DNA of 64,000 bases from Trematomus loennbergii (taxonomy: Eukaryota > Chordata > Actinopteri > Perciformes > Nototheniidae), in assembly GCA_012861695.1 (NCBI GenBank), contig JAAOOA010000127.1, positions 20,544,255 through 20,608,254 on the forward strand. Direction: 5' to 3'. The number at the start of each line of letters is the position of its first letter. Within the stretch, counting starts at the first letter, position 1. Positions 335 to 59,130 of the stretch are shown here, piece by piece. Below the pieces are notes generated by a model that was not told the origin of the DNA, searched no databases, and saw nothing but the letters and a program-made list of their open reading frames with translations. A program made the translations under genes and the position numbers.

Positions 335-1320
335 ATGAGATGCCTACCCCTGTGATGCCCGGCAGGTTGCCCATGGCTCTGGCCCTGGGGCAGCAGCAGC
401 AGCAACAGCTGGCACAAGCTGCCGCGCTGGAGAGTTTCAGAGAGAGGCTGGAGCGCAGCGCTGGAGGAGCCGCAGCCGACGGGCCAGAGAAGAAGATGAT
501 GAGGATGGCCGAGGAGCAGCAGCGCCTCATGCAGCAGGCCATCCAACAAACCTCCTGGCCTTCGCTTCTCACTTCAACCCCATGAATCTCAAACTTAACA
601 ATGGACATGGTGAGTTGTCTAGGCTGTGATTGTTATACTGGCTCTTTCATTACTTAACATGATTTAAGGAAAGTTTATTAAATGGAGTATTTTATTCCCC
701 CCCCCCCCCCACAGAGAACAAACAGGATATGTCTCTGAGCATCTCCACTAATGGAGCAGCCAGTATCAGTGTGTCTGTGGAGGTCAATGGCACAGTTTAC
801 TCAGGTGAGCGATACCATTTAAACAGGGTGTATGCCTTTTTAGTGCTTTTTAAATTCCCCCAAAAACTGCTACACCTCTGTCAGAAGATAAACAATGTAC
901 GCCTACAGGCTCCTGTACAACTCAGAAAACAAAATGTCCTATTATGTGTCTTTAATCTGTACAAAAGCAGGAGATAAACTACAAATTCTGGTTGAATAGG
1001 CGAGAATGGAATACAATTGAATGTAACTATTTCATGCCTTGGAGCAGTGATTTCCTCACAAAACATATATGTTTTCACTTTTATCAGCACTACATTCTTC
1101 CTCAAACTTGACTGAATTTCCTAATTTGTATGTTTTTTATGGTTTTCATTGTAATCTTATCTCTGATCTCTGCATTGCAGGAAAGCTGTTCGCCCAGAAG
1201 TCGGCTGCTCCTGCGGCGTCGCAGGCTGTAAATCTGGCAGGAACGAATGGTTTCAGTGCCATGTCCTCCTCGCATAGTCCCTCCTCTTCATCTTCCACTT
1301 CCTCTAAGGGACCAAATTAA
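335..1320 (+). CDS. arid3b: ARID3-family DNA-binding protein, C-terminal (REKLES) part; probably arid3b
   Basis: Partial gene: the upstream exons with the ARID DNA-binding domain lie left of the window. Three coding exons are visible: 335-609, 715-804 and 1181-1320, each with AG/GT borders, ending at TAA 1318-1320. The first encodes a Gln-rich stretch (QQQQQQLAQAAALESFRERL) and then EEQQRLMQQAIQQ, the start of the REKLES domain. The second encodes SLSISTNGAASISVSVEVNG, the conserved REKLES beta part, which in ARID3 proteins supports self-association and nuclear shuttling. The tail is Ser-rich. The family is certain. The paralogue choice (ARID3B rather than 3A or 3C) rests on synteny with EDC3 and CSK, as on human 15q24. 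Odd point: the frame breaks at the AAA run 548-550. One more A would give the family sequence IQQNLLAFA and keep frame to the exon end; as written, a stop follows at 583-585. Confidence 0.85.
697..710. repeat. 14-base poly(C) tract abutting a splice acceptor
   Basis: Fourteen consecutive C bases run directly into ACAG, the acceptor of the REKLES exon that starts at 715, and so form its polypyrimidine tract. Homopolymers of this length are unstable and are often miscounted in assemblies, which matters here because other homopolymers in the window seem to have lost bases. Confidence 0.9.
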
Positions 1321-2550
1321 GCCTCACTTGACCTTAAATGTGTCCTCAGCAAAATTATTTAGCACCATGCAAAAACTGTGTGAACTCTTAACTAAACTGC
1401 TGTCTCCTAGGACCCCTCTAGTTGTGCTAGTTGACTTCCTGTTTGTCTACTCAAGCAGTGCAGAAAGTCAGCCGTACCACTTCAGGAAATCTATAACTTT
1501 TACATTATTTTTACAATATAATGTGCTTTAAATAAGTTTTGTCAAGAGGACAGAGATGTTTAACCCCAAAGGCTTTAAAACTGACCATAATATAGATTCA
1601 GATCAGAGTTTACCTTTGTGCCTGTTAGATGTTTTTTCTTTTAAATGGCTTTACAAGGTTTGTTCAGAAGTGTATTGACTTTTCTTTGGTTTGTCAACTG
1701 CATTTATGTCTAATTATCTAACAGTTCGGTAGCTGCCTTTTTCCATAGCCATAGTAGAACAGTATGGTTGCCAAAATGCAGCTAATGAAGACCAAAAAGC
1801 CTTAGCTCAATGTCATAGCTCCTGTCTGTAACGGTTTTACTGGAGCCATTTTGTACCCCTTTTAGTTAAAATTTGGTTTAACCCGACCGAAAGCTCATAG
1901 TTTAATAGCAGCTTTCCAGGTTTATGTATAAAAAAAAAAAAATTAGAGAAATGTTTGCAGGTTGGATTTTTGTATGTTTTGTATTGTGTTTCATTTTATC
2001 TTTTTTTTATATTTAATCATTTGGCTCAGCCTCAAATTAATTTCAAAACATTGATTTCATGTCAGCTTTGAATCAAAGGCAAAACCAGAGAGACGGTTTT
2101 GCTGAGAATTATATGTAGGGTGGAAGTGGTTCAACATTTACCTCAATTGACTTTCCATGTTGGTAAGTTTCTCGGGAATTTCTTCTGGACTCAGGAATGT
2201 CCTTTTGGACTCATCACTGTTATTCTGTATCTTATAATATATATTGCTGTGTTGTGTTGCATTAATGCAGAGAATGTATCACTAATGACCTCAAGCTTTT
2301 GACAAGTGCACACTGAAACAGTGCTACCTCACTCTTCTAGAGAAATATGCAATACTTAATGCAGTGTGTTGGTTTAGACATCTGCTGAAATGGACTGTAT
2401 GTGGACAATCAAGTAGACATATCAATCATGCAAACAAATGTCACTGTGAACTTCAGAAAGCAAGGTGTATGCTAAACTCTGTTTTGATCTTTGCTGAACG
2501 TATTTCTTGGACATGTGGCCATAAGGAATAAAACCATCTTGTGTGCTGTA
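1321..2550 (+). other. 3' untranslated region of the ARID3 gene with poly(A) signal
   Basis: No protein-like reading frame continues after the stop at 1320. The stretch is AT-rich and T-rich on the sense strand, typical of a vertebrate 3' UTR. A canonical AATAAA lies at 2527-2532 and is the best candidate poly(A) signal. An A-run near 1930 is followed by no signal and looks like simple sequence. The true 3' end could lie elsewhere. Confidence 0.55.
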
Positions 2551-4149
2551 GAAAGACTGTGTTTTGTTTTTCTTCAGCCAAGTCATTGTTACCTTTGGAA
2601 AACCCCTGCATTTATAGGCTTGTTTTATCATGTTCCAATAGAAGTTAGCCTTGCGGTTGATAATGTTCGTTTAAGATTATAAAATTGTGTAGTAGTCTTT
2701 TAATAGACGTGTGTCAGCTTGAAACAATCCTAATAAGTAGTTAAGCAATTAATACCTCGTCAAAAAATCTCAGCACAGGTCCACTTATTGGCTGTTGACT
2801 GATCTTTAAACTGCATCTCACAATCTTCACCAGTGACTGAAATGATTTTTGATGTCACACATACTGATCCCAATGTCAAGAAATGAATTTCCATGTTTAG
2901 ATGTATTTAGGACATTCTAAACCTGGTTTGCAACCAAAAACCCAAATGGTAGAATGTAAATGAGTGTCTTTATTCAACTTGAGTACTTTCCATTTAATTT
3001 TACTTCACACTTCCAATCCAAAATGCACTATTTACCCTGCATATCAATCAAGAGTTTACATAGAAAACACATGGATCATTTTACAAATGTAATGCATTGT
3101 CGTAAATTAAACACATTATCAAATTACTTTTGATATTTTAAGTATATTTTGCTAAAAATAAGTATGCACCTTTTTCCGCACTATAATAATAGAGTATTTT
3201 TAATTGCAGTATTTCTAGTTTTACTCCAGTAAATTATCTGAATACCTGCACCTTTGCTGGACAGTACATGCCAAAGGAAAATAATACACGAGTGAGTGGC
3301 CAGATGGGGTAGTATTTACTCGGCTATAAAAAAAAGAGACCACACAAGTTCAGGGGTCTTATTTATCTGTAAACATGCACATTTATCCGTATTCAATGTA
3401 TCATCTCTGCTTTTAATCTCTTTAGCCAAGAGCATGGACCAGTAAACATGCAGTATTTTGTTTCCCTGTCTATAATCTTAAAAGTCATTTATATTTTCTT
3501 CCTAATTGAGACCGTGGTGTTTTTCCACATAAGTCTATCAGAAGTCTACTTAATTTCTACATGGAAGAGGAAGAACAGAAATAGTCTGTATTGAGAGTTA
3601 ATTCCTGAACTCTACAGCAGACCTTTGACAGACTTTATACCGGGTTAAACTAATGGAGATGAGAGCTCACGGTTCAGATTGAACAGGTTGTAGGATTTAA
3701 TGTGGGGAGGGTTATTCTATAACACTGCTGGATGGCATCTGGAATACTGTAGAAGAAAGATGCTACAGGCACAATTCAGAGGTATTATCAGATGATATCT
3801 CCGCCCACTGCCCCGCCAACCAGGGCGGAATAATACTCGTCAAGTCACTCAGTGCAGATGAAGGGATCACTGTCCTCGGACGATGACTGGAATATATTGT
3901 CAATGTGCAGGTTTTATTACTCAAAACTGAAACTTGTGTTTTAAATAGTGTGATTTTGTGTGCCTTTGTGTTTCTGGCACACCCAAATAATGGCATAGAT
4001 TGCCTGAAACAAAATCATGTGAGGGAGATCTCCAGGACTGAAAGCCAGAATGTGGTTTAATAAGCCAAACAAATTATCCTCTTCACCGGGACTTCTTGGC
4101 TTCTACTTGTGGATGTTTTAAAATAGGCTCTCAGCACTCTGTTGGCACC
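2551..4149. other. Intergenic stretch and 5' flank of the synaptotagmin-like gene
   Basis: I see no coding exon here. The stretch is AT-rich, with scattered short open frames that resemble no family. The last hundred or so bases before 4150 probably hold the promoter and 5' UTR of the next gene, whose first coding exon has no acceptor close upstream of its ATG. No clear TATA box or CpG-rich core stands out. Confidence 0.4.
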
Positions 4150-7100
4150 ATGCCTTACCACGATGAGGAGTATCCGGGTCAGCCTCTGTGGCAGTCGGTG
4201 CTGCTCTTCTGCTGTAAGGGTATGATCGAGGGCATCATGGTCATACTCTTCTTCTGGCTCCTGGTGCAGGTCCTTTTCACCAAACAACTGGAAGGTATGG
4301 CCCTAAAGGATAAGTTCACAGTTTTTATGATTCTAAATTAACATCCGCATGGTCATATTTGTACCAATACAAGTATGTGGTACAACGTTTTTAGGCATGT
4401 GAATATTGTTCTGAACAGTTTCTGAACAGCTGCCATCTGATTTAAGTTATTATTCTCTCTTTTGTCTGCAGTTCACCTCCAAATCCTTCTTTTGGTCGGA
4501 CTGATCGCTTTTTGTCTCAGTTTGTGCCTGGGATGTGTCCTGTGCTGGAGAAGTCATATGAGTGAAGTGAAAGACAAAGATGCTGTGACTTCAGTACAGG
4601 CTCCTGTTGAACCTTTGACCTTTGTCCAGAGCCCGCCTCCCTCATTGCCAAGGCAGCAATACGAGGAGCTGGACGGAGACATAGTGGAGTACCCCTCCAC
4701 TTTCACCAGCCCTGCCCCTTCGGTGTCTGATTTGTCCTCTCTGCCATTCTCTAAACCAGCTAGAGCTGCCTCTGAACAGACGCACCAGCCAAAGTCTTAT
4801 TTCTCCCTGCGTCACCTCAACACAACACCACAAACAGCCCCCCTTTACAAAGCCATTGATCCCAGCCATGCTTCCCTGCCTGCATTTCCCAAACTGGGAC
4901 AGTTGTCCAAAAAATGTAAGACTCTGCAGAGGCACTGCATGGTGACTGGAGATAAAATATCTTACAATGAACACAGCCGGCTCACTGGCCCAGTGCTGTC
5001 TCTCCTTCAATGCCTGAAGAACGAATCCCACTGGCTCAACTGAGCTATGGCTCCAGTGCCAGCTGCCAACAGCTAATATCACCAAATCCCTGCCTCAATT
5101 TCACTATGGCTTTCTCTCCAGATCAACAAACCCTGGCAGTGACTGTGCTCAGCCTCACTGGGACGCCCCACAGGCTGCAGGATGTGTCTGTGCTGGGCAG
5201 CCTGCCGCCTCTCTACCCCTGTCCCATACAGGCCTCTGCCCAGAGCAGCCTCAGCCCAGAGACCCACAGCCTGGTGCTGCTTTTGAAGGTGAGCTCTGTG
5301 AAGGAGCTTATGAGGTGTGTCCTGAGAATAGCCATATACACACGGGAACCTCCCAGCATGAGAGGCACCACGCTGGCTGAACTGGAGGCTGAATGTGGAG
5401 GGAGAGACTGGGGATCAGAGCAACAATTTCACTTCACAAAAGAGCTCGATCTAAACAAGTGGAGGACAAAAAAGGTACTGGTGTGTTGAACTAAAATATG
5501 TGAGTAGGTGTTGAATTCATTTTAAAGATATAGAGCAGAATAACCTGTAAGGACAACTGTATCAAAAACATGTTGCTGGGCCTCTTTCGAGCATGTTTAC
5601 GATGCATGTTTAAGATCAAAGGTCAAGACCTTTAGGGGCCCATGTGGGTCTCGGGCCCAAGGCAAAGTGTTGCCTGTTGAGCCCAGTTGGTAATCCTGTA
5701 GAAAGGTCACAGTTAAATGATCTGCTGAAACGTGCAACAAGCGAAAGACATGGAGACAAACAAAAACCTGTATTTGTCAGTATATAAAAAGACTGTTTCC
5801 TATGGTGATTTATCTGAATGTTGTACTCTACAAAGCTACTGCACTACACATGCTGCATGTCCTGCGGATCAATGTTTCTCTTTCTGCTCTTTGACGGCAG
5901 AGTCTGATATCACACGATGCACCGCCCTGTAAAGTGCTAAGCTGTCCTCCACAGATCTACATTTTGCTTCAGTATCAGACTACGGCCCACCGCATCAAAG
6001 CCACGGTCCTCAGAGCAGAAAACCTAGAAAACCTCGTCCACTCGCTGGCAGCAGCAGGTAAAGCCGGAGTTTAATGTCACTAGAATTTGACAAAATGTGT
6101 ATTTCATTCAGTGATCCTGTAAAGACAACCTGCATAGGGATTATGTAAGCATGCAGGGCGGAACCAACTTTTGCTTTTTAAGGGCTGATGTAAAGTAATT
6201 CCCTATGTTTGCTTTTAATGTTTAGGGGATTAAATTATGTCTTACAGGACTCAAATGCAGCAGGAGATCATCCCTTTTTTAATGACATTGTAGTTTAATC
6301 CCTCACTATTCACAATCCGCAGGAAAATGTTCCAATCTCCTCTGGATCTCTGATCTGACAGATCTAATCTTTGTTTGCATTAGCCTGTCTAGGCATTACT
6401 TTTATTGCAGACAAGCACATCCTGTATAAAGAGCCATTAGATGATATCTGTCTCAGTGCCGTTATGTCACATGAATTTGACTAGGATAATCTGTTTGTTT
6501 TATATCAGATTTGTTCATGCGAGTAGACAGAATGGCATTACAATGGATAAAGATAGGGGAGAAAATGCATGTTATGCTTTCTAGAGAGTGAGAACAGTAG
6601 AACATGTTGTCAGTTTGATAAACCTACTAGTGTGATGTGCTTTTTCAACATTTCTACCTTTTAGGTTTAGGTTTTACATCTGACTCATCTATAAGAAAAT
6701 GCCTGCTCGTCTGCATTTTAGTTTGGTAGCTGTTGCAAGAAAATATTTTACACCAAAAACATTGTGGCATGCGAACTCTACTCCACTGCTTCCATTTACT
6801 GTAGTTAGAAAGCCACTTCTTTCCTGCATGCATTTGAATATCAGCTGTCATGTTTAATCTTTGTTCAACAATAGACTTTCTTTCACACTTATAATCTTTG
6901 TGTGCACAGAATACCAGGTGGCGTCAATCTGCATAATAAAGGAGTCATGATCAACAGCAGAGAAACTGAAGGAAGCTCCTGTACTCTGTGGGATTCTTCT
7001 TTCCTGTTAGACCTGCCTCCAGGAGAGATCACTCAGCTGCCCCTCCTGCTTGAGTTTGTTATCATGCAGGTACATATCACAGAGTAAAATGCATTTATGC

Positions 7101-7315
7101 CAATTTATACATGTTTTCTTAACATAACCCTCTGAATTCCACTTTCTATTTCCTCTCTAATGGGACACATGTAGGTCCTTCCTGACGGAAAAGCTGTCGG
7201 TCGAGTGCTTATCGGAGCACAGGCTGCAGGTGCAGGACTCGCTCACTGGAGGGACATGTGCAGCCTGCAGGTGGAGCAGGCACGCTGGCACATTGTACAA
7301 CCAGAGTGTCTATAG
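4150..7315 (+). CDS. Synaptotagmin-like membrane protein with two C2 domains
   Basis: Five coding exons: 4150-4294, 4472-5474, 5955-6057, 6910-7069 and 7175-7315, about 517 codons. The start ATG at 4150 sits in a good Kozak context (GGCACCATGC). The N terminus carries two hydrophobic helices, about residues 15-45 and 49-75, the second ending in Cys-rich CLGCVLCW. A Pro/Ser-rich linker follows, then a C2A-like domain (from about TMAFSPDQQTLAVTVLSL) and a C2B-like domain ending in AHWRDMCSLQ...WHIVQPECL, the typical synaptotagmin C2B end. The usual Asp clusters for calcium binding are not apparent, so it may bind phospholipid or partners without calcium. Two frame breaks, near 4993-5010 and 6917-6924, each fit one missing base; the phase of exon 6910-7069 independently demands it. 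The exact member is unknown; syt18/syt19-type fish genes are candidates. Confidence 0.7.
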
Positions 7316-7925: not shown

Positions 7926-7945
7926 GTTTTGCTTGCTTGGTGACT

Positions 7946-8097: not shown

Positions 8098-11000
8098 TCA
8101 TTTGTCTCCTTCCTCCTCTTCATCTTCATCTGGGCTACAGATATCTACCAGCTCAGCCAGGAATAATCCATCAGGATAGAGCAAAGCGGGCTTGATCTGC
8201 TGCAGGTCGGTCACATCTGAACCGAGAGCAGTCTTGTTTTTTGCAGTAAGAGGGCAGTCCTGGATTGGTTTGCACCTTAGTGTTGCTGAATCAGGAAAAA
8301 AAAGACATAAGTCACACAAAACATACACATTTTAAAATGTCATATCTTGCAAATACAGAAGATAGAAAATCAAGCAAGAACAGAAGAATAAAAATAAAAA
8401 TCAATTAAGATCAAAGTAAACAAATACAAATTAGAAAAGTAGCTTGTTATTGTATTAATAATGTATGAATCCCATAGATTTCCCAAAAGCTCGAAACTAT
8501 AAACATTGCACATATCAAAGCAAATGTCTACACTACTGATTATTACATTAATTCATGCACAACTTCACCTGGCAGCAGATTTTCATTGTTTGCCTTCAGT
8601 TTGCAGATAACTGCAGTCATAGTTGACATCTGGCAGGGGAAAGAGCAGTTTTTAATCTCTAATTTAATCTTTATTTTGGGTGCAGAGACCTCTTTTGCAG
8701 ATGTGTCTGTAGAATGCTATTTAAGTAAATTGTTGTGTTATTTTTTTTCAAACGGAAGCTTAAAAAGTGCAGAAGAGGGCAACTTCTTGTTTATCAAATA
8801 AGATAAAAGTTTTAAGAAGATAAAATGTGCAGTTTCTTATTTATCAGCACTGCAAACCATTAAGAGCTTTTAAAGACTTTGATAAAGACTTGTATTTTAT
8901 CTGAATGTTTTTCAGTACAAGACACTGACGTACTGTAACTCTTTCCTATCCTCTTATCATTGAGTCAGATGTGTTCCAGTTGACCGGTTCACTCCTCAGC
9001 TTCAATCAGATTATTTACCCAGTAGAAAGAGTCATATGTGAGATTATAGCTGAAAGACATTTCACATTGCGTTTAAGTGGTTATGCAGCCAGGCTGACAC
9101 TCCTCCCTGTAGGCCTATGTTCTTTGATTAAAGCAGAAACTGGGATTAGTGCACGTGTGTGTGCGTGCGTGCGTATGTGTGTGTATGCAATGAATGAATG
9201 TGTGGGTAGTTCTGCTCATTTTATTATAATATATGCAACGATTAAGCCATCAATGATATTAATTTCCACCGGTTGCAGATGCTAATACATTATATATCAA
9301 ACATGCTTGCATGCAGACAGGCAGATGCAGATGGTCTTTGAGCTGTGTTGTGGCTGGAGGTTTAAAACTGATGTTTTAGTCATTTAGCAGTTGCATACAA
9401 CCTGTTTAGACTGTTTGTTTATGTTTTTCTACTTAAAAAACCGTTACATTTGATGTAATCTAAGTCTGTGCACCTGTTGGCTTTGGTTGTGCCAGTTTTC
9501 CTCAACATGAGCCTCCTCCCCTCCTGGACAGTCACACTCCTCTTCATCCTCCTCAAACACTGGCATTAAACCTGAACCATGCTGCCAGATCCTCCTGTCC
9601 ACTGAATTCTGAATGGAGAAAAAAATGAAAATATTTAAGTTAAATGTAAACACTCTAGCTGTATATGTTAGTTTCTGAAAGGTTCCTCACCCTTACACCC
9701 TTAGATGTTTGGGACCGGTCTTCTGGTGAGGAGGGTGCATTTTGACCTGCAGCTAATCTGTTGTCAACCGTTTCCACCTCTTTTCCTTCTCGCTCCTTAA
9801 ACAGATTCTTTAACTACAACCATGGTAAGATACAATATATTCATCAAGTGATGCTTTGTCATTTACAAAAGGTAAAAACAAGGCTTACAGGCCTACATGG
9901 CTCGAGCTAAATGCTAATGTAATGAATATGACAATGCTAACGTGAGGATGTAGCACCTTTCTCCTTTGTTATTGTTACCCTATTAGTTTAGCATGTTAGC
10001 ATGCTATTGCTAACACTTGCTAATTAGCAGTGGTGGAAGAAAGAGGCTACTTTTGCTTAGGCCTACAAGTGAAAGTTATCAAGTATGAAAAGTCAAACTA
10101 ATCAATTATTCAGAATTGACAATTCAAGTATTATTCATATTATATTAATGGATTATAATGAACATTGCAACTGGTGTAGCTACTTTATTCTCTTCTGGTA
10201 GCTTGTGTATTTCAGCTAAATACTCTCGGGAAAGTATGTCTAAATAAAATGCTTGACCTATTCATCAAATAGTTGTTGAGATATTTCGGTCTTAAAAATG
10301 TATCAGACCAACATAACCAACCCTAGATCCTTGTATTAAAACACACTGAAATGGTGTTAGCATCAGGCATTGTGTACCTGCTCAGTGACCATCCTCTGCT
10401 GGTCTGTCTCTGGATCTAAAGGAGAGACAGTTGTATCCTTCCTGCCTTCAACAGATGGTATCTCATTTTGAACCTGTAGATAAGAAATCTGTCATTCATT
10501 ATGTTCACTACCACTATAGAAGGCCATCCTTAGAGGTGTTGTTTTTATGAACTTTACCGGATAAAGCTGCCTCAGTGTTTGGAGCCTCTGGTCTGACAAT
10601 GTTTCTTCTTCCTGCAGCTGCCTCGTTCTCCTCCTGCTCTCTGAAATCATACGAAGGAAAATGTTTTACATCTGAGCCAGTGAGGAAAAGCATTGCATGA
10701 GCCTACCAAATGTGTATTTATTTTAAAACAGTCTCTTACCTTCCAGCTGGGACCTCAGTGAGTTACTGGTCCAGATAGTTGCTTGGTTTCCATCATCCTG
10801 ATCTTCAGAGGACTTTAAAGTGAGTGTTCATGAGAAACAGATGATACAGGAAGAAGAGATGTGCTGGTTATTCCAACCGTTCAAGCACAGATCTATTGTG
10901 TTTTTAATTAATAGCTTGATGAGGCTGCATGTTTAGATTGAGAGAAAGAAAGTGAGACATCTTTAGTTGAACCTGTTGTTTTCAATTTCTCTAGCCTTTC

Positions 11001-14000
11001 CAGACTCTTAAAATCTTCTTCATTATCACATTTAGATTATCAACCGGTTACAGAATCACTTCCTAGTCTTTAAGACAACTCAGCATTTGTTATCTTTTTT
11101 AAAGAAAGCTTACTTTTCCTTTTCTTCCCTTACTCTGACAGTTTTTGCTTCTGCCTTAACCTCGCTGCGTTGTATACATATAACCTATATATCAAGTCAA
11201 CTGTAAGTATCCTACACACTACATATTTATCCTACATACATGTTTACATATACATACAAATACATCACTGTAGCCCCCCACCCCACCCTAAATTCAAAAG
11301 TTCAGTGAGAGAGGAACATGTTGTTACCTTGGGGGCTTTGTTTTGGCTGCTGTGAGAGGCTGATGATGGCTCCCATAACAAAGAGGATTCTGATAATCTG
11401 ACGAACAGATAGTCAGAGTACACGATAAAGACTCGGATAACAGAATTTCATTTTGAGCGTTTGCTGATCATGCATTTTGAAAATGACAATCTCATCAAAA
11501 TCCACCCACTCTGTCTGTGTCCCTCTGTCCTCAGTCTGTGCCAAGGCATCAGTGCCTGCAAATACAAGGTCACAGCACTTTAACGCCCCCTTGTGTTAAC
11601 ACAATAAAACAACACTTGTTGATAACATTTGCAGGTGCCACAGACTGCTGAAAGAGAAGTACATTCACCTTTATCTTCACATCTGTGAAGCAGAGTCCTG
11701 CTCCTCTCCAGCTCCAGCTGTTGTTTGCATGCGCCAAGCTCAGCCTTCAGCAGCAAGTCCGATTCCTTCAGATAAAATGCATATTGGTAAAAAGTGATTA
11801 TCTTGTCTTTCTGGCCCTCTATCTTAAGTCTTTTAATCTCTGTTGAGAGATTTACAGCTTGCATCTAAATGCACTGATAGAGATTAAAGCTATTTGTGGG
11901 GGATACCCATACATACATTTCTGGAGTTGCTCTTTTTGACTTCCTCTAGCTCCTCTTGCGTAGACTGCAGGGTCAAAGCCACCCTTTGCCATTTCTGTGC
12001 CCAGTGTGAGGCCACAGCCTTCAGCTCCTCGTTGCTCTGGAGTCTCCCTGCGTCTTGTTTTCGGTGCTCTACCTCTTGCAGTTGTAGCTTTTCCTCCCTC
12101 TCAAGGACCCCGGCCTCCAAATACATGCAGCGATCCTGCAGTTTCTGCTTTTCTAATTCCAAAACTCCACAGATTCCCTGCATAAATAGTTTGTGGGTTT
12201 GAGGACAGAGGGTACCCTACTTTTTAATAAGTTTATCTCCAGAATTGAAGGATTTGTTACTTGATTAACATCTCACCTGAGCAGGTGGCACGTTTCTTTC
12301 ATCGCTGTTATCTCTTCATGTCCACTTTCACTAACTTTACTCAGCAGTTCCTCTCTTTCTGTGGTCAGCTGAGCGCAGTCTGCCTCCAGATCTGTGATCC
12401 TTTTAGAGATGGTTAGCCTCTCCAAGGTTTCTTCCTGTAGCTGAGACTGTGATGTTTTCAGTTTCTGCTTAATCTTTTCAAGCTCCCCTGTCAGCTTTTC
12501 ATTTACCTGTTGTAAAGACACAACAGGGATCATTTTATAAAGAATTCAGTAAATGTGAAATAAAAAAAATGATGTTTAGTTGAAGCTTTCTACCTCTTTT
12601 AGCGACTTTAAATCTTCCTTCATTTGAACAGTTTCCTGATCGTGTTTATTGCTTTGGGATTCGCAACCCTCTGAACCTTGTTGGGTCCTCTCCTTAACAA
12701 CACACAACAGAAGAAAACAAATCGTGTTGTAATTCACACACATTATATTTTTATCTTAAATACCTTAGACACAGTTAAACATTTTATACCTGGATCAGGT
12801 GATCTTTGTCAAACAGAGCCCCTGTCAGTTTGTCCTTCAGCTCTTTTATATTTTCCTCCAGTTTTAGTATTTGAGTTGACAAGATGGCTTTTTCCTGAGA
12901 AGAATCAAAGACACATTTCAAGATGTAATTTTCTCCGATGATTGTGAAACAAAGGGCCCCTTGGCACAGACATGCAACACACACCACATGTCCTACATAA
13001 TAGCAAGGCCTACAGACTTTATAGTTCTCTTTGTGTTAATCATGCATTTCTTTGCGGTTATTTAATCAGCGGCAGACTTACCAGGCATGCTTGGCTGATC
13101 TTGTTGTTAGCCTCACTCAGCTCTTCTTGCAATGTAGAGAGATTCTGTCTCCTTTGATTTGTTTCCTCTATTTGATTCAACAGAGTCTGCTGTGTCTGGA
13201 AACGTAGAAACAAAATGCACAGAGCCTAAAGATGTGTACATTGAACAAAAACTAAATAGCAGCACAACAAACAACTACAGTGTGACTTTGTGTACAAATA
13301 TTTTTTATAGTATATTTTAAGATTTCCTATATATCATTTATACCTCTGTAGAAATCTGGAGTTTCTTAAGCGCCTGGTTGAGTTCATCTTCTTTTGTCTT
13401 TGCCCTCGCCTCAGCATCTCTTAGAGCATCTGTCAGCTTGCACAGCTCTAAGTCAACATTCTGCGTAACCTGAATTCAAATCCAAGTCAGAGATTGGCAA
13501 ACAAAACTATGGAAGAATGCATCATTTAGAAAACATATCTGTTTTTATAATACAAAAAGCTTACCTGTCTGTTAAAGTTGTCTTGACTCTTCGGTAATGT
13601 TCCGCTAAGCGAGTCAAGATTTCTCTCCGTTGGCTGATCATGGCTCCTTCTGTCCAAAGTTGATCTCAGATGCAACAACTCTTTCTCCAGCTGTAGCACC
13701 CTTATGAGTGAATTTCACAACAGTACTTTTAATCTTATCTAAAGTATTTTAACTTTTCCTTTCTATGTGTTTTGCTTCACTTACTTTTCTTGAAGCGCTC
13801 TGCGTTGGTGACTCTTTCCAAACTGTATTAATTCAGCTGCCTCTTTCTCCTGCTCCAAAGTGGCCAGTGTTTCTGACAGCTGCTGTGAAACACATCAGTG
13901 CAAAACAGGATGCTGTGTGCATATGAAACAAGATTAAACTTTTACCATAGTGTCCATTATGTTTTCGCTTACCTTATGTTTCATGTCAAGCAGTTGTGCA

Positions 14001-15094
14001 GCAGTTATGTTGTGGCTCAGCGGTGAATTTCTCATCCTCAGCCGGTCCAGCTGAGTGTCTAAACGCTTGTGAGCATCCTGCAGCCAATGGCTCCTTCTGC
14101 TTGTCTATAGCTGCTTTCACCTCGAGCAAACCTTAATCCAGATCCTGGAGATGGAGGAAAGGGCTGTGTCGCACATTCAGGTGCTAGGTGGGACAACGAC
14201 TGCCACTTCCTCAGACCTGGGTCACTCTGTCTGAAGCCACCAGTGCTCCCAGATGTGCTGGAATACATAACATATATCAACCAACCTTATTACTACGCAT
14301 CACTGACTTTAAAATTGCCAACAGCATTTCTGACACTGAACTAATTTCAGTATTTCCTCACCTGGAGCTGACATCCGACAGAAACCCAGTCCCAGAGACA
14401 GTTGCAGTACCACACCATGCTGAGCTCTAAGAAAGAAAAAAACATATTTCTTAAAACAACTCCTCTCTGATCAACCAACCTGCTATACCAGATACAAATA
14501 TTTGGGTCTTACTTGAGCTGTAAAACGAGATTTGGTGTCCCACATGTCGAGGTCACTGAGAGAAAATGGACTTGAGCTTCTGTACGACGGTCTGAACATT
14601 TTGGAGAGTCTTCCTCGATCCAAGTCATGTCTTCTCTTTGTACGGGTGAGGCTGCAGTCTTCCTCTCCCCACGTATGACAGGGTTAGATTTTCACACAAA
14701 GGTGGCAGCTTGAGGTGTGTGGCTATTCTTGGACCATGTGTCTAGATATTTCCATTGCTTGCGTGATGGTCAACAACTAGTTTTAACACTGCATGATTAT
14801 TACAGGGTTTTTGTGATTCACATAATTATTTTGTCTCATTTTACATTTGTTTAATCACATATTTTTCTATTTTAAAGGCAATTATGTCTGTATAAAAATG
14901 TGATTGACAAGAAAATAAACAATACATCTTTTGATCTAATACCTGGAGTCTGCACACAATTGCTTCCTCTTACAGTACCTTGCTGCAGAAACCCCCTCCT
15001 CTCCACTGACAATGCTCACTTGCTTTGCTTGTAAAGCATCACACAGCTTTGATTGCGAGCTTTTCAGTGTACAGTCTTTGAACTGAGTATCCAT
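8098..15094 (-). CDS. Large coiled-coil protein (CCDC/centrosomal type), about 20 exons
   Basis: I do not recognise the gene. Exons with good borders, by plus coordinates: 8098-8285, 9474-9608, 9691-9813, 10378-10473, 10558-10640, 10740-10812, 11328-11397, 11510-11555, 11669-11864, 11917-12177, 12277-12506, 12594-12692, 12790-12894, 13082-13195, 13344-13469, 13565-13700, 13785-13882, 13973-14257, 14362-14426, plus about 14513-14665 and 14943-15094. The N-terminal part is Ser-rich and probably disordered (SPFSLSDLDMWDTKSRF). The middle is a long heptad-rich coiled coil (for example EKIKQKLKTSQSQLQEETLE). The acidic C terminus ends CSPDEDEEEEGDK. The start is uncertain: ATG 15092-15094 or an internal ATG at 14597-14599, because the first splice phase does not resolve. 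Frame slips near 14090-14115, and the junction 12277/12177 is out of phase by one base. Confidence 0.6.
9150..9187. repeat. GT/GCGT-rich microsatellite
   Basis: An imperfect alternating purine-pyrimidine run (GTGTGTGTGCGTGCGTGCGT and similar) in the last intron of the coiled-coil gene. Confidence 0.85.
9900..10330. repeat. Dispersed repeat relics of percomorph type
   Basis: The stretch holds the alternating GCTAA / TTAGC words (for example TTAGCATGTTAGCATGC near 9990) that I associate with abundant dispersed repeats in perch-like fishes. Further right comes the phrase AGTTGTTGAGATATTTC, also repeat-like. A related phrase (AATATCTCAACAACTATT) occurs near 25170-25190 in inverted orientation. 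It lies in a coiled-coil gene intron and has no coding content. Confidence 0.45.
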
Positions 15095-16184: not shown

Positions 16185-16186
16185 TC

Positions 16187-19119
16187 ATGGCAGCCGATTG
16201 GTTGGGTAGTTTGGTGTCAATTAACTGTGGTCCAACGCTGGGAGTGTATCAAGGAAAGGTGGTGTCTGTGGACCAGTCCAGCCAAACCATCTCCTTAAGA
16301 CAACCTTTCCACAATGGAGTCAAGTGCCCTGTTCCCGAGGTCACTTTCAGGTAAAGCTGTACTTTATTTAAATTCTTGGCTCTTCTTCCTCGGTTGCACC
16401 CAAAATACAACACATTAACAACAAAACAAAGGGAGATACGATACAATACGAGAAAGTAAAGTAAGCACCACAAATATAATCAGCCTTCACATACAGTATC
16501 ATATGTAGCCTTAAATAATTGCTGTTATTATTTTCTTTATAAAATTGATCATACTGGTAATCTAGGGTCGATGTAGTTTATCATGATTGATGTAGTCCTT
16601 TACATAACAGTTTATTTGAAGCATTGGTTTTAGGTAAAGATAATGTAAAGTGTCACATGAAGGTATGACTGGTGTGTCATCATTTTGTCTGTCTGGTATG
16701 TAGGTTAATCACACATTGGTCTTATGTACTGTATGTACCAATCGCAATTGGTATAAAACGCTGTTGCTCATTGGGTAGCAAGGTGAACAGCTCTGTTTTG
16801 AGTGAACTGGATCTTATTAAGATTGAAAGCATCTTTTGAAGCACTAAACCAGATGGCTAGACAGTTATCGAGGTGGAATGAAAATTACATTACTATTATA
16901 ATTGTAATCTCTTTTATAAAGTTAGTGGTCTTCCAATGACAAAAATGCCTGCCGCTGTTTCTTTCTGTCACTAAATATAAAATTGTCCCTTTTTTCTGCA
17001 GCGCCATTGACATAAAGGAGCTCAAGATTTTAGATATCACAATTGGCAATGCTAGAAACAGCTCTTCTGCATCTACAAAAGTAAGCAGTGCTCCAGTCGC
17101 AGTCCCAAAGGGCGACCCCAGGTCTGCGGCGAATCTCAACTCTCCTCAGCACTGCTCCAAAAGCCAAGGAGAACGTCACGTGGACATACCTGGCCAGCCA
17201 AAAGGATTTCGTCGAAGACACAACTCCTGTAAGTCCCTGAACTTAAACTTTTGAGCTTTCATTTGACGTTAAGAACACACACACCGTTGCAGTCCTATTG
17301 TTGATTGTTGCTCTGTTGAGATGATTATGTCATTTTCCCATCAGGGTCATCTAGCAGTAAAGGGGCAAACCAAGCAACACCGAAAAAGAATGGTGTGAAG
17401 AACGGCCAGATGAAGCCCAGAGACGACGAGTGTTTTGGGGAGGCCACCGACGACGGGCTGGATGCTGATTTTGATTTTGAAGGAAACTTGGCTCTTTTTG
17501 ACAAAGCAGCAGTTTTCTCAGAAATCGACATTTCGGAGCGCCGTAACGGTGCAAGATCACGTGGGACGCCTCTAGACCAAACGCCCACACGGTACCGCCA
17601 TGATGAAAACATCCTGGAGGCCAAACCTGTTGTGTACAGACAGATTACTGTGCCGCAGCCTGGGGCCAAAGAGTACTGCACTGGTAAGTTGTTTCTCATT
17701 GTAAAGAAATAAAGGTACTGAGGGCAAATATCTAAAGTAGACTGTTATATATATTTTTTTTACTTTCCATCAATACAGACTCTGGGCTTGTTGTACCCAG
17801 TATATCCTATGAACTACATCAGCGTCTGTTGTCAATCGCTGAGCGCCACGGTCTCTCACTGGAGCGAAGACTTGAGATGACCGGAGTGTGTGCGACTCAG
17901 ATGGCGCTCACGTTGCTGGGAGGACCCAACAGGTGAGGATGTACTGATGGTTTGTTAGCACAGATGAGAACAGCTTTAGGTAAAAAATTATAGTTAAGTC
18001 TTACTATTTTTGTTTCGCCTTCTGAGCTAGTATCCTGCAAAAAGAAATCTGCCAAGAATAACATATCAAGCCAGTATAGTGTTCAAGTTCCATAGAAATT
18101 AGTTGGTAACAGTTAGCATTTTATATTTTCAACGCCAAACATAAGTTTACTGCTATCCAGTGCTTGGAGAGGGCAAACTTCAGGAAATTCAACTTAGTCT
18201 CTTTTCCTTGTTTCCTCTAGATTCACTCCGAAGAACTTACACCAGCGTCCCACAGTGGCTCTGCTGTGTGGCCCTCATGTTCAGGGAGCCCAGGGCATCA
18301 GCTGTGGTCGTCACCTGGCCAATCATGAAGTGGAGGTCGTCATGTTTCTGCCCAATTTTGTCAAGATGCTCGACTGCGTCACCAGCGAGGTCACCCTCTT
18401 CAACAAGACCAGTGGCAAACAGGTGTCAAGTATCAAAGGTATGCATTTCTTTCTACTTTTGGTTAGATTTTTTCATCTCAGCTAAGCCTAACTGTGGGGA
18501 GATTTTTGGCTGTGTGCATATTGAATATATTCATAATGTCTATTTGTGCTCTTATAAGACTGTATGGTTAAGGATTTTTTTATTAACTACATTACAGTCT
18601 CGTGCTGTTAAGATGCATATATTTTTTTATCTTAACTATGAAGCATGGAGGGACAATTAAGTGAGATACAAGTCCTCATTGTTTGGGAAAGGAGAGGGAG
18701 ACCGACTTGGTAGAGATCTGCACTCTGACTACATTTTGCATTCCAAGTGGTCAGATATTCAAATTTTGCTCTTTGATTTTTCAGACCTCCCAGACACGCC
18801 GGTGGACTTAATCATAAACTGCCTTGACTGCCACGAGAACACATTCCTGATGGACCAGCCTTGGTACCGGGCGGCTGCAGACTGGGCGAACCAGAACCGA
18901 GCGCCCGTGCTCAGCTTAGACCCTCCTGGTAGTGGACAGGGTCAGGCGGTGGAGGCCAAGTGGTCCCTCTCTCTCTGTCTCCCCCTCTCCCTTGCCGAGG
19001 GGGCCGGCAGAGTTTACCTGTGTGACATAGGTATTCCTCGACAGGTGTTCAAGGAAGTGGGAATCAAGTACATTTGTCCCTTTGGCTGCAAATTCGTCAT
19101 CCCTTTGCACTCTGCGTAA
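16187..19119 (+). CDS. edc3: Enhancer of mRNA-decapping protein 3
   Basis: EDC3 is a P-body scaffold that binds DCP2/DCP1 and DDX6 and promotes mRNA decapping. Six coding exons: 16187-16350, 17002-17228, 17345-17683, 17779-17932, 18221-18438 and 18785-19119, giving 478 residues against 508 in human. The start MAADWLGSLVSINCGPTLG opens the LSm domain. The FDF motif (DFDFEGNLALFD, about residue 170) is the DDX6-binding peptide. The C-terminal YjeF-N domain, from about residue 250, includes ALLCGPHVQGAQGISCGRHL and the usual end KYICPFGCKFVIPLHSA. All six exons join in phase with no frame break, so this gene is a clean internal control for its disrupted neighbours. The first bases of the first coding exon are two UTR bases, then ATG. 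Confidence 0.97.
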
Positions 19120-27889: not shown

Positions 27890-34093
<6,204 letters not shown>

Positions 34094-49570: not shown

Positions 49571-49576
49571 TGTTTC

Positions 49577-51490: not shown

Positions 51491-51945
51491 CACAACTTTA
51501 TTGAAACTCTTGAAGCAACATCAATTTACAAACAAGGAAACGGGAGCTCATTGAACATAAAAACGTTTTTTTAGAAACCAAAATGACAGTAAAGAACCAA
51601 GAAGGGGAACAAACTCCCAAGGGTTGGACCAGCAGTGGCAGGTGCATTTTTTTTTATACAAAAAATAACTTATGAAATCTTTCAAGTTTACAGGAATATT
51701 GTAGCACATGGCATGTGTAAATCGATGATTGGATTTACAGCTCAGCTTGTGTTTCAGACTTTAAACAATTGAATATTTCCAAATACCAAAGCAGAGTTTA
51801 CTTTGATTTAAGAGACAGGAAAAATACCACTGATAAAGAACAAAAAAAATAAAGAACATGAGTGAGCTGGGGCGAATGCGTTTTGGAATTGGAATTTTCA
51901 GTGTGGTGCAAAGTTAGTCAGTCACAGTCATTATGAAAGGCCTTT
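51491..51945 (-). other. caprin1 3' UTR with poly(A) signal
   Basis: Non-coding sequence after the caprin1 stop (TCA 51946-51948 on the plus strand). The minus-strand AATAAA at 51497-51502 is the likely poly(A) signal. Confidence 0.6.
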
Positions 51946-54900
51946 TCAGGATCGTATCGCCTGAGTGCTGCCTCTCGACACTCCTCTGGGTCCCTGACCC
52001 GCGCCGCGCTTGTAGTTCGGTTGGTAACCCTCCTGGAGCAACAGAGGGAAAAAAAACACATGTTAGAAACTACTCCCACAGAAAGCAAACCCAACAGAGA
52101 AAATTATCCAGTGTGAGGACTGAAAGCTTCTTTCATACCCTCTGATAATTCCCGTTTGAGTAATCCCGAGGTGTGTTGAACTGAGTCTGTCCATAACCAG
52201 AGTTTTGAGTATTGGCGAAAGGAGGACGATATCCATCATAGCCACCTGAAAGAAGGAAGACTTGAAACTTCAAAAGCTTCTCCTGAAATGTATACCAAGT
52301 AAGCTCTGAACATTTTGACCCTTGCATGCAATTCTAAATGTCTACAAGCATCTGGGTTACTTTGACAGGTACTATGTTAAAAAGACAGTTAAACTAATCT
52401 GAATTTAATCAAAATGCCTAAACTGAAAAGCAACACCAGTATGAAGTTACATAATTCAAGAAAAAAAGTGTTTAATTATTGTAAATTCTTGTCATTTTAA
52501 ATTACAAAAAGGCAAAATATTTCTAATGAATAATAAAATCGATAGGGACATTTGATCTCACTGTGAGAAGGAGTACCATGTCAACAAAGATCATTAACTG
52601 AGGCTTCAAAATTAATTTAAAAAATCTAAGTCAGCAATGCCATTTTTTCTGTAAAGGTTCTGTTAAGTCTGACTTAAGCCATAATGTAATTGACACCTAT
52701 GTTTGAATGACAACAAGCCCTATCTTTAACAGATGAGGCGATGTCACTTAAGTGAAAATAAAGGATATGTTTGTGGCTGTAGGATGTGTTCCTACCTCTG
52801 AATCCGTTCGAGGAGCCTCTGTATCCGTTGATCATCCCCCTGGCGTTGCGAGGTCCGCCGCGGGACATGCCTCTGCTGTTGTAGAAGGACTGGCCCTGCC
52901 TGGTGAAGCCCGGGCCTGCTGCTGGCCTGCTGACTGGTCCTGGGAATGGAAGGCACCAACTACCAGAAAACACAGTGGGTGCCCCAAAACGGATGCAAGT
53001 CAATCTCCAGTATAATTTGAACACAGTATTTATTAATAAAAATAGAGTTAATTGTACCGACTACCCAGGGAAAGGTCAGAGAATTTAAATTAATGTCTCT
53101 ATTTATGTATAATTTGCCAAGACTTGGAAGGAAAGGGGTAATGTATGTATGTGTATGTGAGCAATAACGTCCAGATTTGAGTGGACTGTAAACTGAGGCG
53201 GGGGTGACTTTTATGTACATCTCCATGTATGTTATATATTTGTGGAATAAATAAAAAGTTCTAACAAAAAAAAAAATAGAGTTAATGGTAACTTTATGTC
53301 AGGAAGACAAATCTTGCACAATCAATCCTGTAAGTACAAAATGAAAACATGTGCCCACCAGTCTGCAGCTGCTCTGCCTGCATCTCTGTCGGCTCCGAAG
53401 GATGCTGCGGCGGGCTGCTGAAGGCTGGGTTGTAGCTGTTCTGGTATTGGCTGGCCTGGTTCAAAGTCTCTGTCTCATTAGCTGGCGGGACTGGGGCATT
53501 GAGGTTGAACACCTGAGGGGAGAACAAGGGCCACATTGTAGTGAAGCCAAAACCAGAGGAAAGGTCACAGGCTCATTAGGAGTAAAGTCCATTACTCATT
53601 ACTTCCTGGATTCAGCTGCTTCACTTAAAACCCATACAACTGCAATATGATGAGAGAGCACACTTAAGGACTGCACTAGCAATCCCTAATGACAGTCATT
53701 CGTGATATATTTGGCAGTGATGCACGAAGTCCTGGAAATGCATTTCTATCTGCTTGACAGGACACATATTCTATTTGAGTACACTAAAAACACAAAATGC
53801 TTTAAATAGCTGTATTTCTGGATACCATGAACAACTATTGAGTAAGTTTGATAGATTACACAAGGGCCTTACTGTCTGCATTGACTGGAATGGTGCTGCG
53901 TTCACGTTGATGCCACTGCTGTGCGGAGCTTTGGAGACAGGCTGGAACACTTGTGTTTGAGAGGCAGACGGGAGAGCTGTGGAGGGCGGAGGCTGCTCCG
54001 ACGACAACGACATGGAGGTCTGACGAAGAGGGTCACAACATTGTTCAATGTCGTATATCATTTAAGTGCAGGTATTACAATGCAAATTCCAAGTTACATT
54101 CTCTTGGTAGGATCAAAAGAGAAAATGAAGATGTGATATTTGACAACTAAAGTCATGTCCTTCATTTTCCCCCTGGCTCTTATTTAAATAATACAGCTAC
54201 CTACCATCACAGCCTTGCAAACAGGACATTTTACAGGCTTTTAGTTCATTAAGACTATTATTTTTTAGTCAACTGAATTCAGGACTGGTGCTGGTTCTCG
54301 GTTTGTATACTTATACAGTATTTAAAGGACTATAAAAACGTTTTAAACTTAAAATGTTGCAATTGTTGTTAAACAAAATAGTCTCAAGTAAGAAACATTT
54401 CCTGATTGACAATCGGCTCAAATCTGATGATATACCCATCATTTTAAGAAGGGCTCTCACTCTTCACAGAGCATGGTTTACCTGGATGGGGTCGATGGTA
54501 TCTGTTGGGGGTCGAGGATCTGGCGTGTGTGAACTCTGATACATGGGGGCGGAGTTGGGGAAACAATAGGAACCTGGACACAGATATTAAACATTAAAAC
54601 ATATTCTCTTTCAAAGCATATTTGGCATGGCTACACAATCAGGGTTTTCCAGGGTTGACTACTTACTTGTGTGGGCTCAGGCTGGAGAGGAACAGAGTTG
54701 GGTTGCGATAGCCGGGACTCTGGGTGAACTAAGAAGATTTGAGCATTGCACCTTTAGTAAACCAGAAAAGTAATTTCAAGCTTTCAAATGTCATGTTTTT
54801 ATACAAGATCACCAGAACTGGATTTCTCTTTATAACCATACCTGGAGGACACACCATCTGTGGTAAGTCCATGTTCTGAGCGGGTTTCATGGGCTGTGCT

Positions 54901-57900
54901 GAGACAATGGCGGGGTCAATGGGCTGTCCGTCAAACTCCAGCATGGAGTCCTGAGAGCAGAGGAGTGATGAGCACCGTGCTTAATGTCTAATGTCTACAG
55001 TCAACTGTGTTTACTAGAGCGAAGTTCCCACCTGCATGAAGTTGTACGTTCCCTGCATCTGTGCCATTAGGTCCTTTACCACCTGCTTCCTGACCAAGGG
55101 GTCGTTCGGCGGCACAGGAGACGCTAAATTCAAGGGGTGGGTCTCCATAGCAACAGGTGAAACGGCAGGCTGCATAGGCGGCGGCTGTTGCTGCTGCAGT
55201 GCAGCGACTGCCTGAGGGTTTGGGAGACAGAACAGATGAATTAGAAAAACAGGAAAAACAGACAACTTGTATAGTGCTTAATAGATATTACCTGTGGGTT
55301 TAAAGTCAGATCATTAAATAAGATTCAACTTGACTAATATCATAGTTTGTTCATTTAAACTTCAAAGGTGATAATTACATGTAATGTTATTGCTGCAGAT
55401 TTATAACCACGATTAATGATTGGTCAATATTGACAGTAATGTAAATGTTGACATTAAAATATATACATGAATAGTCATTGAAGTTGGAAAACCTCGCATT
55501 TATTGAACTTTAAATAAAAATAATGTGTCTTCTAAGAAAGGGATTTCCTTAAACTTGAACTATAATCAACTAAAAAGCAAACAAAAGTAGGTAAATAGTA
55601 ATAAATAGTTAAAACAAACTACAAAGTAACACAAAATAATAATATATATTTATATATTAAAGAATGCAATCTTAGCTAAAATCAGAAGGGAAAAAAAAGA
55701 ATTAAAAAAATCAGCAACACAAGATGAATAAATAAATGTAAATCCCAGAAAGAACCATCCCTGCAGCATACCTCTGTTTCCGTGGTCCACTCGTCCCCCT
55801 GCTCCTTCTCACTGCTGCTGTATGTGCCATCGGGAATGAACTGTCTGTTTATGAACTACAGGGGAAGAAGAAACTATCAGCACAACGCTAGGAAAGAGTA
55901 GTAGCCCCAAGACCTGACTGGAAAGGGGAAAATGTATCTCACCTCTGTCGTCTCTACAGCAATGGGCTCTGTGAACTCCTCAATTATTTCTGTTTCTGTA
56001 AAGAGAAAAACTATTTAGAGAATGCAGTGCTGATTTATTATTGCTTTATTACATTAGCATTTCAAAATAGAGTTTAATGCAGCATGACTTCAGAGACTGG
56101 TTAGTACCTGGATCAGCAGTCTGCTCTTCTGCTTCTGACGATTCACGGCTGCTGCTGCCACCGCTGAGCTGCTGCTGAGGCTGCCACTTCCTCCTCCTCC
56201 TCCTCCTCCTCTTCACACATGCCGTTTTGGTGAGATGGAAGCCGGTCAAAGTACCCACTGAGCAGAACCTGGTCCAAAGTCTCTCTCAGAGCCTTGTCTA
56301 TTAGAGGAATTACATCGTAAGCACATTATTGGAAAGAAATCCACACAACAATACAACATCAATTAAAGTCAGGTCGACATGGTATTGGGGGGAAGCGAGG
56401 TGAAAGAGGCTACTGTGTGTGTAGTTCAGCTAGCTAGACTACACACACAGCACACTGTAACAATAAATACAGTGCTTTTAATTGGTCTGAGATTTTATCA
56501 TTTATCACACAACAAAATTAAATACCCAGTTTAACGCCCCACAATCTTCATATTAATCAAAAAATCTAATATTTATACAATCAAAGTTGAAGTACAGAGA
56601 ATATCTTTACTTTTTTTAAACACACAAAAACTAAGACAAGCTTTATCAGGACAGTGTGGGTATGGTTTGATCAGATTTAATTGCGAGTGTTCCAACAACA
56701 AAAGCAAGTAACCCTGTGACTGCTGACATATTTTGCTTAATCATGATGGATGCACGAATGTTAAGGGAAATCACTTTTTCCCCAAAACAACAATATTGAA
56801 TGTGAAAGCACCAAAACATTTAAATACATGCAAGACAGATTGAAACATATTTTTCAGGGCCATATCTCCATACTGGAAGAGTCAAAAGATGAACCAAAAA
56901 CTAATTTATGATATAAGAAAATCCAGGGCCTAAATGTCCTTAATTGCTGACAAAATCGATAAGAAATATGCTACTTTAACAATCAATACCAAGTCATTCG
57001 ACAACCATTACTTCATTCACTAGAAAACCCATCAAGCCTTTAAGCTAGCTCAGGCATTTCCACGTTTAGCTGTTCAGGAAGAGCAGGTCAGTGTTACTTC
57101 CTTCACTGCCTCATGCTTCAGGCCAAGCTGTCTGGCGCTGCCTTAAAAAGAATCCCCCTGAGTCACAGAGTAAGACCTCCTCACTGAGGGGAAAGCCTTG
57201 GCTGGTGTCACAACAGTGAACTGGGTCACAAGTATCCTAATGTGGCTCCGGAGATCTGACCAGTGGAACCACAGGCCACTGGCACCCTGCCCCCCCCCGC
57301 TGCTGAGTCAGGAGCAGCCCTCAGGCTCGGCCCACAGCAGAATGCAGCAGCCCTGAGGCCAGAGCGCTGAGAATGCAGAACATCATTTTCCCAAAGGCCT
57401 GATTATTCACATCAGAACACTGCACACATGCTGCATTCACAAAATACAATATATACTGGGCTACATTAACATTAACATAGAGCCTACAGTACTTTATAAC
57501 AAGAAGGTCTTGTTCAGAGCGTTTGACAATTTTAGCTTACTTATCTTGGGATTACTTGAAAGTTTCCAAGAAATTACTTACGGACTGTTTCATCACAAGG
57601 AAAGTCTTGCTAATGACTGCTGTGTCACCAACCATCTGACTAATGTTCTGCCAACAATTTTCATCACCAGCTGGGAATCTTAATAAAGCAAGTATTACTT
57701 AAATAATGCATCCCTTTTTATGCTAACTTAATATTGTACCTTTCAGTAGGGCCGCTACTTGTTATTACTTTGAATGAATGTCTTCAGATTGCTTGTTTTT
57801 GCCGCGGATGTTCTATCACCATCATCGTAAAATATAGTTAATAATTAACTGATTATCAATGAAGTTCCTTTTTGGTTTGAAGATACAAAACATTTGAGCT

Positions 57901-59130
57901 GGTAAATTGGGTGCTCGAAATAGTTAGCATGAGCAATCATTAACCAAAATATCAAGGTCTTTGCTCGCTAACAATCATAGGCTCCAAGTTAAATTTCACT
58001 TACATGTTGTTCCAACCACAACCTTGTCTCCCCGTCCAGCAGATCCCCAGAGGTGCACCGATGCTTCTTCGTACTGGTCAACCAACCTGCAAGTGATAAG
58101 ATACAGATTCTCTTGTTTACAACAACCAAAAAAAGCTTTTTTCATATTAACTCTATCTAGATATTAATGCCTCAGATCTACCTGATGCTTTGGTCACGGT
58201 CTGGCCCCACCAGTTTATAGAACTCATCAAAAGATGCAAGGTCTGCATCCGTCAGCAGTGATCCGCTGACGCCCTGCTTCAGGTCCTGCCGCACCGCGTC
58301 CTCTCCCAGCCGGTCCAGCAGGAACTGCAGCTCCAGAATCGTCTTCAGCCGCTTCTGCTCGGCCTCCTCCCGTTGAAGCTGTTCCCTCCGCGCAGTCTTT
58401 TTCACCGCCTTCTGGATCTAATGATAATATACATGAGCCACAAAAAGTCAAGTTACTATAAGTCAGGTCCAACATCACTCTTGAGGTGAAATTGAACCAA
58501 AAATAAAAATGTCATACTTACATCTTGTCCCAGTGTCATGAACGTCTTCTGCAAATCTCGGCCGAATTCTAAGTTATGCATGATTTCCTGGAATTTGGAG
58601 AGGGCCTCCTAATAAAACGCAAAGGAAAAAGTACTTGTAAGAATGACAGGATTATTAGTGCTAATGTACAGAATGATAAGGCTTCAGTGCACCCACCAGC
58701 TGGTCCTGATTCAGATTTTCCCCTTTATCCTTCCTGACTTGATAGTCGTCCAGTTTACTCTGTAACAGAAGATCCAAAATGCAGCAAATTCTTAATATGT
58801 TAGTACATATTAAAAGTAAAGATAATCTTCTCGTCAGTGATTTAGTTTTTCAAGGGCACTTCAGATATCAGTTAAAGATTGCTTCTGAGTGACACACATG
58901 TCATGCCACAACAAAACACAACAGCATGTCCACATGTTGTTATGAGGAAGCATCTGGAACAAAAGCTTCACCTTTTTCTTCTCCATGTTGCGGACCTTCT
59001 TGTCGAGTACACAAAGCACTTGCTTCATGACTTCAGGCTGTCCAGCAAAATTACCCATTGACCCTGGAGCGGATCCCACATCTGGGCTGGCAGACTGCAC
59101 GGTCCCGTTTGCATTCATCGCTGAGGGCAT
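51946..59130 (-). CDS. caprin1: Caprin-1, cytoplasmic RNA-granule protein
   Basis: CAPRIN1 binds mRNA and G3BP and promotes stress granules and neuronal RNA granules. Seventeen coding exons from 58972-59130 to 51946-52032, about 686 codons (human 709). The N-terminal coiled-coil region is clear (VMKQVLCVLDKKVRNMEKKK, KTARREQLQREEAEQKRLKT). Next come KALRETLDQVLLSGYFDRLP, an acidic Glu run, the FINRQF segment that corresponds to the G3BP-binding region, PIDPAIVSAQPM, SSGINVNAAPFQSMQT, and a C-terminal RG-rich region (YNSRGMSRGGPRNARG, YKRGAGQGPRG). Frames break in exon 56108-56297 (net one extra or two missing), in exon 54482-54573 at the GGGGG run 54545-54549, and in exon 52796-52959 near 52905-52925. 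The C terminus (SRGSTQAIRS) differs from the human MPQMNTQQVN end. Teleosts have two copies (caprin1a and 1b); I cannot tell which this is. Confidence 0.96.
53038..53286 (+). mobile_element. Short retroposed element (LINE-like tail) with poly(A) and target duplication
   Basis: The 15-base sequence AAAAATAGAGTTAAT stands at 53038-53052 and again ends at 53286. Between the copies lies about 220 bases ending in AATAAATAAAAAGTTC and then an A-run. Target duplication plus poly(A) is the mark of target-primed reverse transcription. The body resembles a fish L1-type 3' tail (TGTATGTATGTGTATGTGAG). It lies in the caprin1 intron between exons 53359-53512 and 52796-52959, on the strand opposite to the gene. 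It is non-coding. Confidence 0.8.
56298..58003 (-). other. Largest caprin1 internal intron, with a GC-richer motif-dense core
   Basis: No exon is seen. Most of the intron is AT-rich, but 57050-57380 is GC-richer and packed with transcription factor-like words: two TGAGTCA sites, an AACCACA site and GGAA-type sites. A poly(C) run (57291-57298) sits inside. This core is treated separately as a possible enhancer. Confidence 0.5.
57061..57320. promoter_or_regulatory. Candidate enhancer: Ets, RUNX and AP-1/NF-E2 type motifs
   Basis: Seen in the sequence: AGGAA at 57076-57080, ACTTCCTT at 57096-57103 (Ets type), TGAGTCA at 57159-57165, AACCACA at 57267-57273 (RUNX type) and TGCTGAGTCA at 57301-57310 (NF-E2/MARE type). 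Such combinations are typical of blood-cell enhancers. The target could be caprin1 itself or a neighbour such as lmo2. Motif matches alone are weak evidence. Confidence 0.3.

Follow-up and report, generated by a model that had tools for sequence, protein, structure and literature searches.

Single-base frame breaks in six of eight genes of a Trematomus loennbergii contig are very probably consensus errors of the genome assembly

In a 64,000-nucleotide stretch of the Trematomus loennbergii genome assembly, referred to here as the window (contig C127, JAAOOA010000127.1, positions 20544255-20608254; 39.8% G+C, no N), six of eight genes have broken reading frames. The broken genes are arid3b, of which the window holds the end only, the synaptotagmin-like gene syt18b, an unnamed coiled-coil gene, adal, nat10 and caprin1; the other two are edc3 and csk. 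Are these genes broken in the fish, or only in the sequence that represents it? Judged from the sequence, the breaks are present in the assembly file but very probably absent from the fish, whose own genes are most likely intact, and we regard them with high confidence as consensus errors of the genome assembly, that is, as uncorrected insertions and deletions (indels).

The source assembly comprises 1,208,474,268 bases in 3566 contigs. To detect breaks, proteins were aligned to the DNA by a spliced dynamic programme admitting codons of 1, 2, 4 or 5 nucleotides at a cost and introns of the GT-AG type. Predicted proteins of close relatives served as references for arid3b, syt18b, the coiled-coil gene, adal and nat10; caprin1 was assessed through a Pfam profile and PDB chains, no caprin1 relative being named in the best 120 of 1091 protein matches. 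The six genes are as follows.

334..1320, plus strand: last three coding exons of arid3b, whose start lies upstream of the window; 165/165 aligned codons match Dissostichus eleginoides P0192, with one -1 break
4150..7315, plus strand: syt18b (synaptotagmin-like; name taken from the matched sources); 512/531 codons match Pogonophryne albipinna P0124, with two -1 breaks
8098..14599, minus strand: unnamed coiled-coil gene; 810/832 codons match D. eleginoides P0241, 793/836 P0242 and 733/766 P0244
35923..41189, plus strand: adal (N6-methyl-AMP deaminase); 334/339 codons match residues 1-346 of Champsocephalus esox P0122, 302/341 P0126 and 305/341 P0128
41589..49570, minus strand: nat10 (RNA cytidine acetyltransferase); 1013/1025 codons match Notothenia coriiceps P0001, with two -1 breaks
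51946..59130, minus strand: caprin1; PF12287 matched at 323/323 positions in joined pieces, with PDB caprin-1 chain 4wbe and caprin-2 chains also compared; ends placed by eye

By codon, identity to the closest relative used was 96.4-100% in the five aligned genes. The arid3b and coiled-coil proteins were nearest to Dissostichus among the relatives compared, the latter with 91% identity to D. eleginoides for a stitched query and 97.4% by codon. The adal product was 97% identical to that of Champsocephalus esox over the compared part, and the nat10 product 99% identical to that of Notothenia coriiceps across 1037 amino acids. These identities mark the window as the DNA of a teleost, and within the teleosts of an Antarctic notothenioid. 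One protein of Dissostichus mawsoni, P0247, had differing residues, and that species was rejected as the source. No in-frame stop was found in the alignments of these five genes to relatives, and the reference proteins P0001, P0122, P0124, P0192, P0241, P0242 and P0244 were uninterrupted at the sites compared with each. The clear breaks are listed below, with the number of the relative's codons recovered once one base is inserted.

548..551, plus strand: arid3b, net loss of one base, possibly within an A run; 15/15 codons
4987..4993, plus strand: syt18b, net loss of one base; 15/15 codons
6922..6924, plus strand: syt18b, net loss of one base outside any run; 10/11 codons
14088..14090, minus strand: coiled-coil gene, net loss of one base common to the alignments of three relatives; 15/15 codons
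12164..12166, minus strand: coiled-coil gene, net loss of one base common to the alignments of three relatives; 12/12 codons
39808..39809, plus strand: adal, net loss of one base on which three relatives concur; 15/15 codons
39860..39865, plus strand: adal, net loss of one base in a G run on which three relatives concur; 15/15 codons
45936..45940, minus strand: nat10, net loss of one base in a C run; 13/13 codons
43742..43744, minus strand: nat10, net loss of one base in the final codons ahead of a splice donor; 10/10 codons
54545..54558, minus strand: caprin1, net loss of one base in exon 54482-54573, in a C run; profile positions 1-76 and 87-216 out of frame with each other, interval placed by eye
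52905..52925, minus strand: caprin1, net loss of one base in exon 52795-52969; profile positions 87-216 and 233-323 out of frame with each other, interval placed by eye

All 11 clear breaks are net losses of a single base (two-sided sign test, P=0.001), nine of them found by alignment in five genes and two in caprin1 by Pfam. At each of the nine aligned sites, which we call the clean sites, inserting one base recovers the relative's local peptide, one codon of 11 being missed at a single site. In arid3b, disallowing frameshifts lowered the alignment score from 781 to 651 and introduced one stop. For caprin1, the Caprin-1_C profile (PF12287) was matched as three successive pieces, at positions 1-76, 87-216 and 233-323, which together score 407 bits when joined. 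Since each boundary between pieces falls within one exon and the frames on its two sides differ, two one-base losses are indicated.

At three other places the change is something other than a simple loss.

37880..37907 (about), plus strand: start of adal exon 2, scrambled relative to three relatives, with a six-base motif repeated; the splice choice is ambiguous, and the spot was not counted
58029..58046, minus strand: candidate compensated pair in caprin1 exon 58005-58088, with +1 at 58043-58046 and -1 at 58029-58030, from comparison with 4wbe
56157..56213, minus strand: caprin1 exon 56108-56299, frame changed by a net +1 (alternatively by -2 or by two -1) within or following a GAG repeat, from a three-frame reading

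The caprin1 exon 58005-58088 probably holds such a pair: allowing it raised the number of codons identical to 4wbe from 68 to 71, and the pair emerged at frameshift costs of 10 and 7 but not 16. When this pair and exon 56108-56299 were added to the sign test, losses outnumbered other changes by 12 to 2 (P=0.013); the adal exon 2 spot was excluded from both tests. Two other flags raised by the alignments were set aside. One in the coiled-coil gene, at 10625, appeared with P0242 and was absent with P0241 and P0244, and one in adal, at 41187, was assigned to the reference P0122, whose end departs from P0126 and P0128.

The original prediction, that six of the eight genes are broken by about nine apparent one-base losses and that in most of them one added base restores the family sequence, is confirmed by the alignments and the Pfam profile, with some corrections. 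The six genes are those it named, and restoration held at all nine clean sites; its count was nearly right, the clear losses numbering 11, and not all of the anomalies are losses.

Coding DNA totals about 13.6 kb, which puts the 11 clear breaks at approximately one per 1.2 kb, a rate based on coding lengths entered by hand, with those of csk and caprin1 being estimates (2043 for caprin1, against an exon sum of 2073). Their spread over the genes fits random errors (gene-level dispersion, P=0.63). Upstream of the window, two neighbouring stretches hold further arid3b exons, in which 389 of 403 aligned codons match P0192. A twelfth -1 break was found there, in one exon near position 20539355 of the contig among 406 residues examined, indicating that the trouble extends beyond the window, as seen in this one gene.

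Two genes of the window retain their frames.

16187..19119, plus strand: edc3, frame unbroken; an exon join of 478 codons with five introns, no frameshift, no stop and four Pfam domains
27890..34093, plus strand: csk, frame unbroken; 437 amino acids aligned to PDB 1k9a over 28025-34066, start and stop codons placed by eye

The edc3 exon join, being made from the sequence itself, demonstrates an open frame only; comparison with PDB 3d3k gave no break over the 232 amino acids that it spans. The sole flag of csk against 1k9a, at 31915, was read not as an error but as a GC-AG intron beginning at about 31916. Both genes are therefore clean, as had been claimed. The probability that both would escape at random is 0.08 to 0.11, which places their contrast with the broken genes within chance.

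Codon insertions in nat10 near 48200 were likewise attributed by eye to a GC-AG intron and not counted as errors. The window thus holds two introns of this type as judged by eye, at about 48201 on the minus strand in nat10 and about 31916 on the plus strand in csk, and a gene finder restricted to GT-AG introns would call frame breaks at them.

The original prediction had also tied the losses to homopolymers. We determined, for each site, the longest run able to hold it with the missing base included, and compared the result with 3000 simulated deletions in 15-codon segments drawn from 1856 such segments; the observed sites span 5 to 15 codons, a small mismatch with the simulation. Across 10 sites, which include the adal exon 2 spot and exclude caprin1, the possible runs were 4, 4, 1, 3, 2, 3, 2, 6, 5 and 3. 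Their mean of 3.3 exceeds the simulated mean of 1.99 (P=0.0008), and 4 of the 10 sites could lie in runs of at least 4, compared with 9.3% in the simulation. Dropping the adal spot left the result essentially unchanged (mean 3.33 over the nine clean sites, P=0.0008). The homopolymer bias is therefore present, and it is moderate, with three of the nine clean sites situated outside runs.

The breaks could instead belong to the animal or its lineage, as a block of recent pseudogenes. As written, the six genes cannot be translated through, and in this loss of frame the window does resemble true recent pseudogenes. However, six unrelated genes, one of them the housekeeping gene nat10, would have to break together by one-base losses, while decay would be expected to yield stops and other indel sizes as well. 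The window differs from true recent pseudogenes in its lack of any nonsense codon, in the little protein divergence that 96.4-100% identity in the five aligned genes leaves, in nearly a single event size and in the number of unrelated genes affected. In addition, the nat10 region 43700-46100, which contains both nat10 breaks, had no duplicate in the assembly among the 40 of 231 candidates that were scored. The one full match was the region itself, and the remaining matches were confined to a short dispersed repeat within 44813-45051. We consider true gene loss very improbable. Misread gene structure, in the form of unannotated introns, GC-AG splices or wrong exon boundaries, deserves as little credence: the two GC-AG introns do mimic breaks under a GT-AG model, adal exon 2 may partly be a splice question, and the nat10 site at 43742-43744 adjoins a donor, but at the nine clean sites the relative's peptide continues unbroken over a gap of a few bases within one exon, where an intron could not fit. 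Most remote of all is the idea that the fish truly carries the one-base losses and makes working proteins through programmed frameshifting, slippage or transcript editing. In the relatives these peptides are encoded with no change of frame, and we found no evidence for such rescue, no motif common to the sites being seen, with no dedicated test of slippery sites or stem structures made.

These comparisons favour consensus error, and the earlier view of the breaks as error rather than biology is well supported by the intact relatives, the high identity, the absence of stops, the uniform direction of the 11 breaks, the run bias and the absence of a duplicate nat10 region among the scored candidates. 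Single bases would have been dropped, and rarely added, as indel-prone reads became consensus; drops would have been more frequent inside short homopolymers, and the consensus would have been left uncorrected by accurate reads. We infer that reads of the same individual would contradict the sequence at these sites. That the source reads were long reads, as the original prediction held, is plausible, and the chromosome-size contigs (31,057,693 bases for C127) suggest long reads with scaffolding. Homopolymer loss occurs beyond long reads too, and no truncation fingerprint of a platform was found in comparison with 19 other stretches of the genome; still, an origin of the consensus errors in a short-read, 454-type or linked-read consensus, or in gap filling, seems unlikely, if less so than the alternatives above.

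Several points weigh against consensus error. The case is built from the assembly sequence and its comparison with relatives, a profile and PDB chains. The relatives' proteins are themselves predictions, and P0122 may contain a frame error of its own. Three of the nine clean sites cannot fall in a run of at least 3 even when the missing base is counted, caprin1 carries at least one change other than a simple loss, and edc3 and csk carry no break. Lastly, the window shows no deficit of long homopolymers relative to the 19 other stretches, with 7 A/T runs of at least 9 against 9.8 expected, a control that comes from the same genome and may be truncated too. Taken by itself, the window seemed truncated between homopolymer lengths 8 and 9, a possible fingerprint of the platform, but the idea was rejected when the other stretches proved similar: long A/T runs are about as scarce in them, so that they offer no independent platform signature.

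In other long-read assemblies, indels tied to homopolymers have been described as shifting the frames of genes and breaking gene models (PMC12007338). The errors described there resemble those of the window in being single-base deletions, enriched in runs, that split conserved genes and give them the look of pseudogenes; they differ in that they concern small genomes with reads at hand, whereas here the assembly was compared with relatives and one clean site in three falls outside a run. For a similar Antarctic notothenioid assembly, built from PacBio CLR reads, the polishing described in the available text used the same long reads only (PMC11708224; see also PMC9635638); other Antarctic fish assemblies were polished with linked reads (PMC10256766).

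On the best reading, the finding is a data-quality warning about an ordinary artefact and not a matter of biology. Automated gene models would be expected to break here. With a coding indel roughly every 1.2 kb, many long genes in such an assembly would be split, shortened or labelled pseudogenes, and taking such breaks as biology would mislead work on gene loss in Antarctic fishes.

Some minor observations concern runs and repeats. A/T runs of exactly 8 are in excess in the window (27, against 10.5 expected from the 19 other stretches; P~1.5e-5, post hoc), and dinucleotide repeats of at least 8 units are fewer than those stretches would predict (2, against 21). The Champsocephalus esox adal protein P0122 extends beyond the stop of the window's adal, and the record itself may be out of frame at its end. 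A 167-bp tandem repeat in 2.4 copies lies within the long adal intron, at 36470-36874. Two dispersed repeats were also recognised, at 30000-30255 and 44826-44962, with at least 40 and at least 43 matches, respectively.

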